A DNA stretch of 64,000 nucleotides, taken from NCBI RefSeq assembly GCF_000421845.1, contig NZ_ATXU01000007.1, positions 1 to 64,000 on the forward strand, in the 5' to 3' direction. The notes beneath the pieces are model-generated. The model was not told the origin of the DNA. It saw nothing but the letters and a program-made list of their open reading frames with translations, and made no database searches. Positions 222-19,538 of the stretch are shown one piece after another; the first letter of the stretch is position 1, and each line of letters begins with the position of its first letter. Both the position numbers and the translations under genes were made by a program. The stretch comes from Leucobacter chironomi DSM 19883 (GTDB lineage: Bacteria > Actinomycetota > Actinomycetes > Actinomycetales > Microbacteriaceae).

Positions 222-242
222 GCATACCCCTTAGGGGTATGC
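222..242. promoter_or_regulatory. CsoR-type copper operator upstream of copZA
   Basis: The palindrome gcatacccc-tta-ggggtatgc has 9-bp arms with G4/C4 tracts, which is the form of CsoR (copper-sensing repressor) boxes. It sits 30 bp before the copZ start and so would overlap or abut the promoter. No csoR gene lies in the visible part; it may be to the left of the window. Confidence 0.7.
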
Positions 243-271
243 TGAGAAAAGCCGCAACGAGAGGACCCGCC

Positions 272-12452: not shown

Positions 12453-13823
12453 TCACTGGCCGTCGAGGTCGGGGATCTCGGGCAGGTCCCACTGCAGCTC
12501 GGGCAACTCGATGGGAGTGGGCGTCGGCGCGGGCGCCGTCGGGATGATCGGCTGCTCGGGCCGCGTGGGCGACGGTTCGGGATCGGGTATCCGCTCGGAC
12601 GGGACGGGCGGCGCGCACGCCATCACGACCGCGAGGGCGACCGAGGCGGCCGCTGCGGCGATCGCGAAGCGCATCGGCGCGCGGGCCCCGGCCGCCTCCC
12701 CGGAGACGGCCGCTCCCAGCTGCCGCTGTCGCAGCAGCAGGGAGAACGCGGGGGGCGCGGCCAGCACGAGCGCGATCACGCCGAGCAGCGGCCAGAACCG
12801 GCCCGTCGCGTCGCCCGCCCCGAGCAGGGCCACGAAGAGGGCCGCGAGCAGCGGCACCGGCAGCAGGCCGAGCGCCCCCGTGCCGAGCAGGGCGCCCATC
12901 AGCACCGGCCAGGCGGCCCCGACGAGGACGAGTACCACTCCCGCCCGGGCCCACGGAGGCCTCGACCACGTCTGGCGCAGGAAGCCGCGCGGCGCCGAGC
13001 GGGTGGTGCCCACGAGCAGCTGGAAGAGGTTCACGCAGATCGCGCCGATCACCGCGAACACCGCCGGGGGCACCGCGATGGCGACGAGCAGCCACGCGGC
13101 GAGGGCCGCCACGAGCCGGGTGCGCTCCCACACGGCCGAGGTCATCGCGAACGCGGCCTCACGCTGCTGCGGGTTCTGGGCGAGCACCCCGCTCAGCACC
13201 CGCATCGCCTGGGCGTCGGTGCGGGTGTGCACGTCGGAGGCGAGCAGCAGCAGGTCTTCGTGCTCGGGGTCGATCGCGAGCCCCTGCGCGACGAGGTGCG
13301 AGAGCTCGCCCTTGTCCGCGATCCCGCCGAGCATCTGGGCCGCCGCCGCGTAGACGCCGGCGTCGTGCGGAGCGAGCGCGACGGCCCGATGCACGTGCGC
13401 TCGGATGGGTTCGCGGTGGGACACGTCACCGCGCGGCTCGGCGCGCAGCGCCCACGCCGCGAAGAGGTGCGCGGCGGGCACCTCGGGGGCGAGCGCGAGC
13501 GCCCGGTCGATGTGGGGGCGCGCGAGCCGCGGCTGCTCATCCCTGAGCTCGAGCGCCGCGAGAGTGAGGTGCGCCCTCACGTCGTCGGGGTGCAGGGCGA
13601 GCGCGCGCTCCGCGGCGCTGCGCCCCTCCTCGGAGTGCGAGCACCGGTACTCGGTCCACCCGAGTTCGGACCAGAGCGCCGCGCTGTCCGGGAACGCGGC
13701 GACGCCGCGACGCAGCTCGGCGGCGGCCTCCTCGGCTCGCCCGAAATCCCAGAGCGCCGCGGCGCGCCGCAGATACCCGTTCGGATCCTCATCGGCGGAC
13801 GAACCCGAAGGCTCCCGGCTCAC
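12453..13823 (-). CDS. TPR membrane protein, third gene of the AAA/TPR operon
   Basis: The 456-residue protein has no recognised family name here. Residues 1-190 form tetratricopeptide-like helical pairs (for example RAAALWDFGRAEEAAAELRRG and AERALALHPDDVRAHLTLAALE). Four to six membrane helices follow (about 225-415). The C-terminal tail is rich in Pro and acidic residues and ends in IPDLDGQ. It shares its layout with the gene before it, from which it may derive by duplication. It starts at GTG 13823, overlapping the stop of that gene in a GTGA, so it is translationally coupled. The Cys in VMACAPP lies after the last helix, far from the N-terminus, and is not a lipobox. Confidence 0.8.
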   Translation of the reverse strand: MSREPSGSSADEDPNGYLRRAAALWDFGRAEEAAAELRRGVAAFPDSAALWSELGWTEYRCSHSEEGRSAAERALALHPDDVRAHLTLAALELRDEQPRLARPHIDRALALAPEVPAAHLFAAWALRAEPRGDVSHREPIRAHVHRAVALAPHDAGVYAAAAQMLGGIADKGELSHLVAQGLAIDPEHEDLLLLASDVHTRTDAQAMRVLSGVLAQNPQQREAAFAMTSAVWERTRLVAALAAWLLVAIAVPPAVFAVIGAICVNLFQLLVGTTRSAPRGFLRQTWSRPPWARAGVVLVLVGAAWPVLMGALLGTGALGLLPVPLLAALFVALLGAGDATGRFWPLLGVIALVLAAPPAFSLLLRQRQLGAAVSGEAAGARAPMRFAIAAAAASVALAVVMACAPPVPSERIPDPEPSPTRPEQPIIPTAPAPTPTPIELPELQWDLPEIPDLDGQ

Positions 13824-15559
13824 GGAACCTCCGCGCCGTCGATCGGAGCCGCACCGCCCTGGCCCTGCGGCTGCTGGTTGCGCTGGCGGATCTCCTCGAG
13901 CGAGCGGTTCATCCGCTCGATCGCGTCGTCGTCGGGCAGCGAGCTGCGCCGCTCCTCCATCTCCTGCTGCAGCTGCTGAGTGCGCTCGCGCATCTCGAGC
14001 TCCATAGGGGTCGGCGGCGGATCGAACTCGGCGGCGTGCCGGTCGGCGAGCAGCCACGCACCGGCGATCCCCGCCGCCGCGCAGGCCAGCGCGGCGAGCA
14101 CGAGCCACGGCGAGGTGCGCGACGATCCGCGTCGGAGGGAGACCACCCGGCCCGCGCGCAGCAGCAGGGCCACCAGGGGCGGCACGGCGAACGCCGCGGC
14201 CACCGCGGCGAGCGCACCCGCGGCTTCGGGCCGCATCTCGATCGGCTTCGCGTAGACCGGCATGAACGCGAGCAGCACCGCAACGCCGACCCGGGCGAGC
14301 CCCCACCATCCGTTGCGCAGCTCCTGCCGCGCCGCGGACAGGCCCTCGTCGTCGCGGGGGAACAGCCCCGTCCGCTGCTCCGAGCGGAACCGCGCGAACA
14401 CGAACAGCACCTCGGCGATCATCAGCAGCCAAGCCGTGAAGCCGATGCCCATCGTGACGCCGCCGATGTAGCTGCCCTGCATCTCGAGATGGCGCTCACC
14501 GGATCGCACGCCGAGCGTCAGCGCCCACAGCAGCGTGCCGAGACCGCCGACGGCGGCGAGCGCGAAGCCGATCCACACCCACCACACCGGCGCGTAGAGG
14601 CGGCGCATGAAGCGTTTGGGCAACCCCCGCGTGCGAATGGTGAAAAGCAGCACGAACCACGCCATCGGCAGCACCAGCATCGCCTCGGCGAACTTGACCT
14701 GGGTGCGCCGGCTGCCGGGCGAGGGCTCGCCGAACACGAGGTAGGCGAATACCGTCAGCATCGCGAGCATCCAGAGTGCGAGGCCCGCGAGCAGCTGCGT
14801 GCGACCCCAGACCCGGTCGCTGATCTCTCTCGCGACCGAGCGCTGCACCGGATTGTCGGCGAGCACGCCCGCGAGCAGCCGCAGCGCCGCAGCCTCGTGC
14901 GCGGCGCCCATGCCGCCGATGCGCGGACTCGCCTGCCCGGCCCGCTCGCTCTCGCGCTCGGCGGCGAGCAGCCTCAGGCTCTCGGCGTCCGGATCGAGTG
15001 CGAGCGCGCGGCCGAGGGTGTCGGAGGCGGCGGCCGAGTCGCCGAGCTCGCGCAGCATGACCGTGGTGCGGCGCAGCGTCTCGACGTCTTCGGGCGCGAG
15101 CTGCAGGGCGCGGTCGAGGCTGGCGCGAGCCTCACGACGGCGCAGCTGCTTCGCCTTCCGCGGCCCCCGCGGGTCGGCGATCAGCGCTCGCGCCGCGTTC
15201 AGATGAGAGACGGGCCAGTCGGGATACGACTGCTGCAGCTCGCGGGCGTGGGCGAGGCCCTCATCGGCGCGGCCGTCGGCGATGGTCGTCTCGCACAGCG
15301 TGTTCAGGGCTCGGGGATCGCCCGGTCGCACCGCCAGGGTGCGGTGCGCGAGCTGCTCGGCCTGCTGCGGCTGCCCGGCGAAGAACAGCTGCCAGCCCAG
15401 ATAGCCGAGCAGCTCGGAGTCGTCGGGGAACTCGGCGAGGCCACGCCTGAGCTCGGCGATGGCGTCTTCGACGCGGCCGAAGCCCACGAGCGCCTCGGCC
15501 CGCTCGAAGAAGCCGGCGGCCGTCTGCGACTCGGCCGCTCCCCCCGCGGGCGCCTCCAT
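13820..15559 (-). CDS. TPR membrane protein, second gene of the AAA/TPR operon
   Basis: The 579-residue protein begins with a TPR-rich cytoplasmic region (about 1-215) containing several GR-(V/A)-EDAIAELRRGL-type repeats. About seven membrane helices follow (245-525). The C-terminal 55 residues are polar and probably coiled-coil, rich in E, R and Q, starting near MELEMRERTQQLQQEMEERR. The start ATG shares one base with the stop of the AAA gene (TGATG), and its own stop overlaps the next start. The design suggests a membrane scaffold whose TPR domain could bind the AAA ATPase or its clients. The function is not known to me. Confidence 0.82.
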   Translation of the reverse strand: MEAPAGGAAESQTAAGFFERAEALVGFGRVEDAIAELRRGLAEFPDDSELLGYLGWQLFFAGQPQQAEQLAHRTLAVRPGDPRALNTLCETTIADGRADEGLAHARELQQSYPDWPVSHLNAARALIADPRGPRKAKQLRRREARASLDRALQLAPEDVETLRRTTVMLRELGDSAAASDTLGRALALDPDAESLRLLAAERESERAGQASPRIGGMGAAHEAAALRLLAGVLADNPVQRSVAREISDRVWGRTQLLAGLALWMLAMLTVFAYLVFGEPSPGSRRTQVKFAEAMLVLPMAWFVLLFTIRTRGLPKRFMRRLYAPVWWVWIGFALAAVGGLGTLLWALTLGVRSGERHLEMQGSYIGGVTMGIGFTAWLLMIAEVLFVFARFRSEQRTGLFPRDDEGLSAARQELRNGWWGLARVGVAVLLAFMPVYAKPIEMRPEAAGALAAVAAAFAVPPLVALLLRAGRVVSLRRGSSRTSPWLVLAALACAAAGIAGAWLLADRHAAEFDPPPTPMELEMRERTQQLQQEMEERRSSLPDDDAIERMNRSLEEIRQRNQQPQGQGGAAPIDGAEVP

Positions 15560-16911
15560 CAGAATCGCTTGTACTGCTTGAGCAGTTGCACGAGGTCGTC
15601 GTAGCGACCGTCGGTGTTCGCGTAGTTGGCGACGTTGCGCGCGCTGTCGAGCCAGGGCCCGATCGACGGTCTCACCTCTTTCAGGGCGCGGTTCATGTCG
15701 CCCATCGAGACCGGCTGCACCGCCCCTGACTTGATGGATGCGGCGAGCGCCTTCTCGGCCGCCGTGTCGCACAGGTGCTTGAGATCGGCGCCCGAGAAGC
15801 CCTCGGTCTTGCGGACGAGCACGGGGAGGTCGATGCCCTGGATGGGCCGCTGCTCGAGGTGGCTGCGCAGGATCGCCTCCCGCGCCGGCTCGTCGGGCGG
15901 GGAGACGAGCACCATGCGGTCGAAGCGCCCGGGGCGCAGCAGCGCCGCGTCGACGTCCCAGGGCATGTTGGTGGCCGCGAGCACGAACAGGCCGTCGTTG
16001 TCGCTGCCCACGCCGTCCATCTCCATGAGCAGCTGGTTGACGAGGTTGCGCAACCACTGCGAGCCCTGCGAGCTGCGCTTGCCGCCCACCGCGTCGATCT
16101 CATCGAGGAAGAGCACGGCGGGCGCCTTCTGGCGGGCCTCGGTGAAGGTCTTGTGGATGTTGCCCTCGCTCTCGCCCATCCACTTGCTCAGCACATCGGC
16201 GAGGGTGACCGAGATGAAGTGCGCGCCGAGCTCGCCCGCGATCGCGCGCGCCAGGTAGGTCTTGCCGCAGCCGGGCGGGCCGTAGAGCAGCAGGCCGCCG
16301 CCGAGGCTCTTCTTGAACGCCTTGGCGATCTCGGGGTGCGCGATCGGGTCGAGGAACGTCTCACGGATGCGCTGCTTCACCTGTACCAGGCCTCCGACGT
16401 CGGAGAGCCTCATCGTCTCGCGGCTGACCTCGACGGGCAGCGAGCCGTCGGGCGCCTCGGAGACGCCCACGTCGATCGTGCCGTCGGGGTTCTGGCCCGC
16501 CTGCTCGACGATGAACGGGGGCGGCAGCGGATTCTCGAACTGGTTCTCGAGCTGACGCCAGTCGACCCCCGACCCGGGCGTCTCGGGGTGCGAGTCGCCC
16601 TGGCCGTGCGGCTGATACGGCTGCGGCCGGGGCGTCTCGGTCGTGTACGCGGCGTGCTCGGGCGGCGACGAGGCACCGGCCGCTCCCTCGCCGGGGACGG
16701 TGTCGGACGGCGCCTCGCCGGTCAACCGATCGACGAGGGCGCGCGCACCCGCGTGCCCGGGCGCCTTCGAGAGCACCACCATGGCCTGCCCCAGCCCCTC
16801 GTCGCGCCGCCCCGCCTCGGCCAGTCGCTCGGCGTAGAGCGCGCGCAGCTCGGGGTCTTCCGGGGAGGCGGCCACCGCGGCAGCCAGACTGTTCAGCAGT
16901 GCGTCGGACAT
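15559..16911 (-). CDS. AAA ATPase with Vps4/katanin-type pore loop
   Basis: The 450-residue ATPase has a single AAA module. A short N-terminal TPR-like helical region (1-65) and a disordered linker (66-165) come first. The AAA domain has Walker A GPPGCGKT (211-218), Walker B LFLDEID (267-273), sensor N315 and arginine fingers R326 and R329 in RPGRFDR. Pore loop KWMGESE (243-249) matches the K-W-hydrophobic-G-E loop of the meiotic-clade ATPases (Vps4, katanin, spastin), which thread and remodel protein polymers. The C-terminal region has SIGPWLDSARN, like the Vps4 C-terminal helix. No peptidase domain is present. It is the first gene of a three-gene coupled operon. TAGCAT lies 6 nt before the ATG, so it is probably leaderless. 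Confidence 0.88.
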   Translation of the reverse strand: MSDALLNSLAAAVAASPEDPELRALYAERLAEAGRRDEGLGQAMVVLSKAPGHAGARALVDRLTGEAPSDTVPGEGAAGASSPPEHAAYTTETPRPQPYQPHGQGDSHPETPGSGVDWRQLENQFENPLPPPFIVEQAGQNPDGTIDVGVSEAPDGSLPVEVSRETMRLSDVGGLVQVKQRIRETFLDPIAHPEIAKAFKKSLGGGLLLYGPPGCGKTYLARAIAGELGAHFISVTLADVLSKWMGESEGNIHKTFTEARQKAPAVLFLDEIDAVGGKRSSQGSQWLRNLVNQLLMEMDGVGSDNDGLFVLAATNMPWDVDAALLRPGRFDRMVLVSPPDEPAREAILRSHLEQRPIQGIDLPVLVRKTEGFSGADLKHLCDTAAEKALAASIKSGAVQPVSMGDMNRALKEVRPSIGPWLDSARNVANYANTDGRYDDLVQLLKQYKRF

Positions 16912-16917
16912 GGTTCG

Positions 16918-16923
16918 ATGCTA
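16918..16923 (-). promoter_or_regulatory. -10 box of the AAA/TPR operon (leaderless)
   Basis: TAGCAT on the minus strand is separated by 6 nt from the ATG at 16911. No ribosome site is present between them. Confidence 0.55.
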
Positions 16924-17017
16924 CCCGCGGCCTCCGACATGCACGGGGCGACGATCCCGCTCGAATGCGATCGCCGTCACTGAGGCGGTGCGCAGCCGAG
17001 GCTGTCAGACTGGAGGC

Positions 17018-17428
17018 ATGCGTACCGTCATCCGCGTGCTCGTCAGCGCCTTCGCGCTGTGGCTCACCACGCTCATCGTGGGCGGCAGCGGCCGTCACGG
17101 GGTGTGGATCGACCCCATCAGCACAGACGATTACGCACCGATTCTCACCGTGCTGCTGGTCGCGCTCGTGTTCGGGCTCGTGAACGGCACGCTCGGCAAG
17201 GTCGTGCGTTTCGTCTCGATCCCGCTCTACATCCTCACCCTCGGCCTGTTCGGCCTCATCGTGAACGGCGTCCTGTTCGCGGTGGTCGCGTGGCTCTCCG
17301 ACCTCGCCGGCTTCGGGCTGCGGATCGAGACCTTCTGGTGGGGCGTCCTCGCGGCGCTCGTGATGTCGGTCCTCTCGGGGATCCTGAACGCGCTGCTCGG
17401 CACCAACCGGAAGCGCGGCCGGGACTGA
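17018..17428 (+). CDS. Small membrane protein, phage-holin-family-4-like (PF04020 type)
   Basis: The 136-residue protein has four hydrophobic helices separated by short loops. Motifs such as ALVFGLVNGTLGKVVRFVSIP and LTLGLFGLIVNGVLF are typical of the widespread bacterial membrane family PF04020. Despite the family name, such single chromosomal genes are not evidence of a phage. The start ATG 17018 has ggagg unusually close (one base) and CAGACT ending 6 nt upstream, so a leaderless mRNA is possible. It is divergent from the AAA gene. The function is unknown. Confidence 0.8.
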   Translation: MRTVIRVLVSAFALWLTTLIVGGSGRHGVWIDPISTDDYAPILTVLLVALVFGLVNGTLGKVVRFVSIPLYILTLGLFGLIVNGVLFAVVAWLSDLAGFGLRIETFWWGVLAALVMSVLSGILNALLGTNRKRGRD

Positions 17429-17969: not shown

Positions 17970-18101
17970 CCGCGCCCTGCGACGGCTCGCGCCCGCGTCT
18001 CGGCGTGCGCGGTCGAGCGCGCACGCGGCGGCGGAACCGCCCTCGCGCCCGCGTGGGAGAATGGAGTCCGGCCCGCGATCCCGAACCACCGAGAGGCACC
18101 C

Positions 18102-19487
18102 ATGACCCCGCTTCCCCCGCAGCCCATCAGCCCCCTCGACGGCCGCTACCGCGCCGCAGTCTCCGGCCTCGGCGACACCCTCTCCGAGGCGGGGCTCAAC
18201 AAGGCCCGGGTGCACGTCGAAGTCGAATGGCTCGCGTACCTCACCGAGCACTCGCTGCTGGGCGCGACGCCGCTGCCCGCGGCCGAGCTGCAGGCGCTGC
18301 GCGACTGGGCGGCGAACTTCGGCCAGGCCGAGATCGACCAGCTCGCCGAGACCGAGCGCACCACCCAGCACGACGTGAAGGCCGTCGAGTACCTCGTGCG
18401 CGGCAAGCTCGACGAGCTCGACCTCGGCCGCCTCGCCGAACTCACCCACGTGTGCTGCACGAGCGAGGACATCAACAACCTCTCCTACGCGCTGACCGTG
18501 AAGCAGGCGATCGCCGACGTGTGGCGCCCGAAGTTCGAGACCGTCATCGCCGAGCTCGCCCGCCAGGCCGAGCAGTACCGCGAACTGCCCATGATGAGCC
18601 GCACCCACGGCCAGCCGGCGACGCCGACGACGCTCGGCAAGGAGCTCGCGGTCTTCGTGCACCGCCTGGAGCGGCAGCTCAACCAGATCGACGACGTCGA
18701 ATACCTCGGCAAGTTCTCGGGCGCCACCGGCACCTTCGCCGCGCACCTCGCCGCGGATCCCCGCACCGACTGGGCGCAGGTCTCGCAGGAGTTCGTGGAG
18801 GGCCTCGGCCTCGACTGGAACCCCCTCACCACCCAGATCGAGTCGCACGACTGGCAGGCCGAGCTGTACACGCGGATCGCGCACGCCAACCGCATTCTGC
18901 ACAACCTCGCGACCGATATCTGGAGCTACATCTCCATCGGCTACTTCCGCCAGATCCCGGTCGCCGGCGCCACCGGTTCGTCGACAATGCCGCACAAGGT
19001 CAACCCGATCCGCTTCGAGAACGCCGAGGCCAATCTCGAGCTGTCGAACGCGATCCTCGACTCGCTGGCCGCCACGCTCGTGACCAGCCGCTGGCAGCGC
19101 GACCTCACCGACTCGTCGGCGCAGCGCAACATCGGCGTCGGCCTCGGCCACTCGGTGCTCGCGCTCGACAACATCCTCAAGGGGCTCGGCCAGATCGATG
19201 CCGCCCCCGAGGCGCTCGCGGCGGATCTCGACGCGAACTGGGAGGTGCTCGGCGAGGCGATCCAGACCGTGATCCGCGCCGAGGTGACGGCCGGCCGCTC
19301 CACGATCAAGGATCCCTACGCCGCGCTCAAGGAGCTCACCCGCGGCCGCCGCATCGGCCAGGCCGAGCTCGTCGAGTTCGTGCAGGGCCTCGAGATCGGC
19401 GACGAGGCGAAGCAGCGACTGCTCGCGCTCACGCCCGCCACCTATGTGGGCGACGCGGCGCGGCTGCTCGACTACCTGCAGCGCTAG
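18102..19487 (+). CDS. purB: Adenylosuccinate lyase
   Basis: The 461-residue protein belongs to the fumarase/aspartase superfamily. It has the signature GSSTMPHKVNPIRFE near residue 292, the CTSEDINN motif and the MMSRTHGQPATPTT catalytic histidine region. It performs two steps of purine synthesis: cleavage of SAICAR and of adenylosuccinate. The close match to IRFENAEANLE identifies it as PurB rather than argininosuccinate lyase or fumarase. The start has gagagg upstream. It stands alone and is closed by a strong hairpin 52 bp downstream. Confidence 0.96.
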   Translation: MTPLPPQPISPLDGRYRAAVSGLGDTLSEAGLNKARVHVEVEWLAYLTEHSLLGATPLPAAELQALRDWAANFGQAEIDQLAETERTTQHDVKAVEYLVRGKLDELDLGRLAELTHVCCTSEDINNLSYALTVKQAIADVWRPKFETVIAELARQAEQYRELPMMSRTHGQPATPTTLGKELAVFVHRLERQLNQIDDVEYLGKFSGATGTFAAHLAADPRTDWAQVSQEFVEGLGLDWNPLTTQIESHDWQAELYTRIAHANRILHNLATDIWSYISIGYFRQIPVAGATGSSTMPHKVNPIRFENAEANLELSNAILDSLAATLVTSRWQRDLTDSSAQRNIGVGLGHSVLALDNILKGLGQIDAAPEALAADLDANWEVLGEAIQTVIRAEVTAGRSTIKDPYAALKELTRGRRIGQAELVEFVQGLEIGDEAKQRLLALTPATYVGDAARLLDYLQR

Positions 19488-19538
19488 GGTGTGCGGATCC
19501 GCGCGATCCGCCGCCCCACCTGATCCGCGCGCCGCGCG

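Follow-up and report, generated by a model that had tools for sequence, protein, structure and literature searches.

An AAA ATPase gene and a TPR membrane-partner gene form a recurring pair in Actinomycetota: a candidate membrane-docked remodelling system in Leucobacter chironomi

A 64,000-nucleotide stretch of the Leucobacter chironomi DSM 19883 genome (assembly GCF_000421845.1, contig NZ_ATXU01000007.1, positions 1–64,000; hereafter the window) carries, in the region 12453–16923, three overlapping genes that encode an AAA ATPase (gene A) and two proteins with tetratricopeptide repeats (TPRs) and predicted transmembrane (TM) segments (genes B and C). Judged by its recurrence at independent loci, the durable unit is the A–B pair, a real and recurring bacterial gene set. 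From the order and domain content of the genes, the conserved ATPase residues, the A–B linkage, and a partner that is repeatedly duplicated and changes fast, we infer that A is an AAA remodeller that works docked at the membrane and without a peptidase, and that B and C are its receptors, a reading to which we give an even chance. The layout of an AAA gene coupled to two TPR-membrane genes by TGATG and GTGA overlaps had been proposed in an initial annotation made from the DNA letters and their open reading frames (ORFs), and coordinates, Pfam matches and hydropathy bear it out (Table 1).

Table 1. Features of the three genes. Residues refer to the encoded proteins, positions to the window.
Feature	Residues	Positions	Strand	Description
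Gene A		15559–16911	−	450 aa, single-module classic AAA ATPase
A, N-terminal domain	1–65	16717–16911	−	four helices, 2–15, 20–32, 36–49 and 54–63 (AlphaFold2); two TPR-like hairpins
A, [FVI]DWxxxE motif	115–122	16546–16569	−	within disordered linker; helix predicted at 118–124
A, AAA module	165–396	15724–16419	−	Pfam and conserved motifs
A, Walker A	211–218
A, pore loop 1	242–249			SKWMGESE
A, Walker B	266–273
A, sensor 1	N315			followed by PWDVD
A, arginine-finger segment	326–332			RPGRFDR
A, C-terminal helices	415–450	15562–15669	−	family signature PSxxxWxxxARNxAxxxNxxGxYDDLxxxLK
Gene B		13820–15559	−	579 aa, TPR membrane partner; one base in common with A (TGATG)
B, TPR solenoid	14–235	14855–15520	−	12 helices; Pfam, AlphaFold2
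B, TM helices	254–506	14042–14800	−	about 7, predicted
B, charged C-terminal tail	507–579	13823–14041	−	helical, then low-confidence
Gene C		12453–13823	−	456 aa, GTG start; 4-base overlap with B (GTGA); B paralogue
C, TPR domain		13149–13784	−	Pfam; limits approximate
C, TM region		12597–13127	−	5–7 helices predicted, count uncertain
C, Pro/Asp/Glu-rich tail		12456–12596	−	resembles tails of several Microbacteriaceae partners

Linkage and distribution of the ATPase–partner pair

Relatives of A were fetched with their surroundings at 58 loci, 50 of which, from Actinomycetota genomes, belong to group 1 and eight to group 2, the latter nested inside the former (support 100/100). At 46 of the 50 group-1 loci a match to a hidden Markov model (HMM) of the partner lies at most 2.2 kb downstream of the ATPase gene on the same strand, the weakest being that of L158 (E 5e-4), and at two more, L172 and L186, the partner lies upstream of A. 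As a control, the upstream 2.2 kb on either strand gave partner-HMM matches at 7/50 loci, L172 and L186 included. The partner HMM is partly circular, with 29 of its 31 members coming from these same loci. An independent check is provided by the Pfam family TPR_19, found in 46 of 51 partner proteins versus 6 of 107 flanking genes (both at E <= 1e-5); TPR_14 was found in 48 of the 51 at E <= 0.01. The scanned set consists of 45 partners, the doubtful ORFs of L172 and L185, and the partners of L197, L200, L201 and L202. At the 45 loci with a usable ORF, the script-chosen start of the partner falls between −22 and +28 bases relative to the stop codon of the ATPase gene; TM segments are predicted in 43 of the 45. 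The group-2 partners match the HMM at 8/8 loci, and all three that were scanned have TPRs by Pfam.

The initial annotation had made conservation beyond this strain a test of its proposal, and such conservation was found: the A–B pair is widespread (48/50 loci), and the full set of A, B and C recurs elsewhere in the genus in two genomes (G026 and G030). ATPase presence was counted for both groups, with E limits of 1e-62 in the genus, 1e-70 in the family and 1e-75 above, in rank samples that overlap and each contain the window's own genome. Relatives were detected in 17 of 54 genomes of the genus, 46/398 of the family, 36/396 of the order, 36/345 of the class and 8/296 of the phylum. A search of genome contigs returned at least 80 loci; since these mix true relatives with FtsH and Cdc48 and are incomplete, we draw no distribution count from them.

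Six bacterial relatives outside Actinomycetota were among the matches listed, five of which (L199–L203) have a TPR gene downstream, with 5, 5, 4, 1 and 4 TM segments, respectively, by a crude count. These A–B pairs come from Calothrix (Cyanobacteria), two Planctomycetota, a member of the Verrucomicrobiales (Verrucomicrobiota) and one of the Hyphomicrobiales (Alphaproteobacteria). The sixth, L198, has no TPR gene downstream and is preceded by a small gene with a weak TPR match. In a plasmid collection, ten records carry an ATPase relative (eight Streptomyces, one Actinomyces and one Nonomuraea, the last a record of 11.85 Mb that may be a chromosome). In the four plasmid records inspected, the next gene overlaps or abuts the ATPase gene; two of these neighbours are annotated as tetratricopeptide repeat proteins and the other two as hypothetical.

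Among the 107 flanking genes, the commonest Pfam families have six members (MFS and TPR) and the next three (best 25 of 122 families). A fixed third partner was sought among these families and rejected; the third gene that does recur is a paralogue of B.

Some further observations concern the loci themselves. L055–L061, L192 and L205 form the nested ATPase group, which differs in its N-terminal sequence and ends in a C terminus of the QLRAYRV type, and at the eight of these loci tested (L205 not among them) the TM-less partner overlaps the ATPase gene by 4 bases. On an Actinomyces oris plasmid (L275) the pair is found at a distance of four annotated genes from a cluster resembling dnaK-grpE-dnaJ.

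Domains of the ATPase and its partners

A matches the AAA family (PF00004) with 145 bits over residues 207–336, followed by AAA_lid_3, and a hydropathy count gives no TM segment. In its AlphaFold2 model, built on an alignment of 23 sequences (mean predicted local distance difference test score, pLDDT, 82), the four-helix N-domain is predicted with confidence. About 90 residues of linker, modelled at low confidence and containing a short helix where the DW motif lies, precede the AAA module. Pfam TPR_19 is found in the N-domain of 22 of 23 relatives at E <= 0.1, and hhalign matches the N-domain to the partner TPR profile with 96% probability (E 5e-9), versus 0.7% for the N-domains (MIT) of five archaeal Vps4/CdvC sequences. 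With the N-terminal TPRs that Pfam detects in B and C, the early suggestion that all three proteins begin with TPR-like helices holds up. A MIT domain is absent among the Pfam families listed for A (best 25 of 28) and for its relatives (best 25 of 53). The tryptophan at residue 118, within the linker motif, is present in 22 of 23 actinobacterial relatives; the motif was not seen in the pre-AAA stretches displayed for the non-actinobacterial relatives.

The catalytic residues are strictly conserved. In all 23 aligned relatives G216/K217/T218, D270/E271, N315, R326, R329 and R332 are invariant. The arginine-finger segment noted at the outset is present. Residue 244 of the pore loop is W, Y or F in 18/23 relatives and residue 245 is hydrophobic in 23/23. 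The loop KWMGESE, from which a meiotic-clade affinity had been read, exists in A, but is not a family trait: SKW[ML]GESE occurs in 3 of the 23 (window, G030 and G061) and varies elsewhere, and sequence alignments place GESE-type loops in Cdc48 as well. PW after sensor 1 is present in 23/23 actinobacterial relatives and in five of the six from other phyla (for the sixth, L198, this segment was not displayed), and C termini resembling the family signature were also found in L198–L203. No peptidase domain is among the Pfam families listed for A, B and C (best 25 of 28), nor a peptidase family among those listed for the eight genes scanned around the operon (best 25 of 28), in agreement with the initial annotation. 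A degradation role was considered for A, B and C and rejected, given the lack of a peptidase domain among the families listed for them.

A tree of AAA modules with 102 rows recovers the A family as one clade (100/98) and contains a split that separates it, together with archaeal Vps4/CdvC, from Cdc48, FtsH, PAN and Cpa (100/94, with fewer references). A second tree, to which human VPS4B, katanin, spastin, ATAD1 and seven IetA-like proteins were added and from which 34 rows were left out, places the A family (31 rows, 100/100) as sister to the meiotic clade of Vps4/CdvC/katanin/spastin/Msp1-ATAD1 with 91/91. Approximately unbiased (AU) tests rejected none of seven alternative placements (p 0.12–0.44), namely with FtsH (0.27), FtsH and PAN (0.185), Cdc48 D2 and Cpa (0.124), all Cdc48 and Cpa (0.125), CdvC alone (0.296), Vps4/katanin (0.125) or IetA (0.44). 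A position of A beside Vps4, katanin, spastin and Msp1 rather than among FtsH-type enzymes is favoured by the tree, yet we claim no firm deep placement. The FtsH/ARC-type phylogeny that would have spoken against the initial annotation was not found; neither is it firmly excluded, and ARC/Mpa is absent from the tree. Given this position and the PW after sensor 1, "Vps4/katanin-like" is a fair first description of A. With neither a MIT domain nor a beta-domain insert, however, A falls outside Vps4 proper.

The AlphaFold2 model of B (mean pLDDT 89, 31 sequences) comprises 12 TPR helices, a long-helix bundle and a tail helix. Its Foldseek matches include TPR superhelices such as 2pl2 (TMt 0.84), and MamA is also in the list. 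Loop charges suggest an N-in, C-out topology with seven TM helices. The long polar C-terminal tails described in the initial annotation exist in B and C of the window but are missing in many shorter partners. Tails of several partners of the B/C type (e.g., L157, L158 and L165) contain repeated Pro-rich motifs of the [DE]IP[DE][FIL] type.

With 37% identity to residues 4–351 of B, C represents a tandem paralogue of that gene. Of 45 further loci checked, five (L045, L159, L160, L176 and L180) have a B-like third gene after B; at three of the 45 (L047, L155 and L184) the contig has little or no space for such a gene. A tree of 43 rows requires, on its well-supported branches, at least four changes of the third-gene label, indicating that receptor duplication recurs. 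The ratio of non-synonymous to synonymous differences (pN/pS) relative to G030 climbs from 0.32 in A through 0.52 in B to 0.75 in C; the neighbouring hisC has 0.30. These values are rough because of many silent changes. By this measure the putative receptor B/C evolves faster than the motor A.

The genus offers several side observations on these genes. C-type TPR-TM genes at L062:8704–10116 and L063:8222–9664 lie beside hisC and E1 and are 73% and 82% identical to C of the window; no match to A was found near them in the 18 kb fetched. In G061, A and B adjoin the same E1 gene and C is lacking. In G026 gene B (L010/L020, L044) is split across two frames, reflecting either a broken copy or an assembly fault. 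Against the same genome (L044), all twelve 300-base steps of window 12843–16443 are 92–99% identical; the flanks are 85.7–89.3% identical over E1, hisC and a phosphatase gene, but 93.6% in 18070–19512. The synonymous divergence (dS) between window and G026 is 0.065 for A versus 0.32 for hisC. From these comparisons, the operon may have been exchanged recently between members of the genus.

Downstream of the operon, on the same strand, lies a hisC-type gene that scores above the NCBIfam PRK03321 cut-off. Directly upstream of A, a divergent gene (16910–17428, + strand) encodes a small membrane protein of the Pfam family Phage_holin_4_2.

Proposed mechanism and alternative explanations

In the proposed mechanism A would act as a hexameric AAA motor without peptidase. 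B probably docks it at the cell membrane: B, and likewise C, would hold A at the inner membrane face, in a putative A–B–C complex, with their TPR domains toward the cytosol. As receptors or adaptors the two would be interchangeable. The grooves of their TPR domains may bind the client, the ATPase (via its own TPR or the DW motif in the linker), or both. The shared TPR type of the N-domains of A and B suggests TPR–TPR or motif–groove docking. The ring would then pull on a membrane-associated client, leading to extraction, unfolding or complex disassembly, presumably by threading, as with Msp1 or Vps4.

Several points weigh against this model. The partners of all eight group-2 loci and those of L182 and L183 in group 1 have no predicted TM helix, so that membrane docking is not universal, and L185 and L190 lack an adjacent partner altogether. 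Moreover, five of the 23 relatives carry H, V, I or M at residue 244 of the pore loop.

Other readings of the genes can be judged against the same evidence. That they are a chance cluster of unrelated genes has a negligible probability: although 37 of 54 genus genomes lack an ATPase match at the genus limit, ATPase relatives extend far beyond this strain, the start and stop codons of A, B and C overlap, and the linkage of A to its partner at 48 of 50 loci amid varying flanking genes refutes this explanation. The initial annotation had put forward an ESCRT-like (endosomal sorting complex required for transport) remodelling or extraction machine. In a true ESCRT-like system, A would disassemble an ESCRT-III/PspA polymer at the membrane. 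Such a system would fit the favoured tree position beside Vps4, CdvC, katanin, spastin and ATAD1 and the PW that A shares with VPS4B and katanin, but we consider it very unlikely, and in this literal form the proposal was not upheld. A has neither MIT domain nor Vps4 beta-domain insert, and the host genome, which is 99.67% complete, contains no match to PspA_IM30 (PF04012), a search that was positive in 9 of 14 control genomes, and none to Snf7 (PF03357), for which the control is weak (positive in 1/14). With no match to either family, ESCRT-III is an unlikely client here.

TPR domains are common as assembly scaffolds, a role also held by MamA. It is conceivable, if unlikely, that A and B/C form a chaperone that assembles or activates one particular envelope complex instead of acting as an extractor of proteins, with the TPR partner as scaffold. 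The presence of MamA in the Foldseek list for B agrees with this, as does a separate AAA protein available for degradation, FtsH-like by score and length (C1:392985, a 777-aa frame and the top PF00004 match); the sporadic occurrence within the genus and the lack of a fixed neighbour among the flanking genes listed argue against it. We regard it as quite unlikely that the genes are a conflict or defence module, in which fast-changing membrane TPR proteins would sense a phage or other invader and the AAA protein would be the effector motor, comparable to the anti-phage system IetAS, which consists of an AAA protein and a subtilisin. The patchy distribution across family genomes, the plasmid-collection records and the climb of pN/pS from A to C are in line with it, and PADLOC models for IetA reach up to 121 bits on the AAA region. 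However, B and C have no PADLOC match at E <= 0.1, and the IetA-like proteins form a distant clade of their own (100/100), even though the AU test allows them to join the A family. In the flanking genes PADLOC (E <= 1e-8) finds seven families with at most two members each; with no recurrent family among them, placement in defence islands was rejected. A phage collection yielded 15 records (E <= 1e-30) that cover only 38–50% of the query, three of them annotated ftsH, and, for want of a full-length match, phage origin was rejected as well.

Extending the membrane-docked remodeller beyond this operon is more tentative. The pair may be a widespread bacterial counterpart of Msp1/Vps4, that is, a TPR-AAA motor with plug-in membrane receptors that diversify by tandem duplication and fast change, yielding accessory extraction or disassembly systems with changing client ranges in several phyla. 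The known cases of membrane extraction and remodelling that involve classic AAA proteins apart from FtsH come mostly from eukaryotes or archaea. If true, a two-gene bacterial system with its own membrane receptor, placed beside that clade, would make the way in which such motors gain membrane clients accessible to genetics on a small scale, and would bear on whether bacteria carry out Msp1/Vps4-type work without ESCRT-III.

Comparison with known AAA systems

Like Vps4 and katanin, A carries PW after sensor 1. It differs from Vps4 in having a TPR instead of a MIT N-domain, and the place of the beta-domain insert is taken by 7 residues (396–402, between helices 374–395 and 403–412), compared with about 50 in VPS4B. 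The meiotic clade has the finger sequence RRRFEKR, whereas A has an RPGR[FL]xR segment as in Cdc48, and A is further set apart from that clade by its own C-terminal signature.

All NCBIfam models listed for A (best 25 of 50) score below their own cut-offs. The closest solved relatives, by sequence and by fold, are p97/Cdc48, with p97 chains as the best Foldseek matches. Cdc48/p97 and the actinobacterial protein Cpa have two tandem AAA modules and A has one; A reaches 227 bits against the CDC48 model (cut-off 803), and the D2 module of Cpa (PMC6017811) groups with Cdc48 D2 in the tree. FtsH is a classic AAA protein like A, which in contrast has no TM segment and no zinc peptidase domain, scores 198 bits against the FtsH_fam model (cut-off 600) and does not group with FtsH in the tree. 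IetAS likewise is an operon with a classic AAA protein, yet no protease domain was found among the scanned neighbours of A, which scores 120 bits against the IetA equivalog model (cut-off 510). EccA of type VII secretion consists of a TPR N-domain and an AAA module, a fusion also seen in A, and the NCBIfam EccA model matches residues 207–313 of A with 36 bits.

No functional study of the A–B pair was found in the literature searched, an absence that is weakly tested. The pairing as such is not new: bacterial VPS4-like ATPases beside a gene for a TPR protein with six TM helices are briefly mentioned by Ravi et al. (2024, mSystems; PMC11237479) with ACB74714.1 as example, and membrane-proximal action is proposed there for the pair. 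Section 18 of that paper names no actinobacterial case, third gene or further function. In the literature text examined, we found neither the spread among actinobacteria nor the TPR N-domain of A, nor the recurrent receptor duplication or the missing ESCRT parts. By description, their pair resembles ours in that a classic AAA gene adjoins a gene for a TPR and multi-TM protein. The two differ in that six TM helices are given there and about seven are predicted for B, and in that the VPS4-like proteins described there have MIT and C-terminal oligomerization domains (PMC11237479), both of which A lacks.

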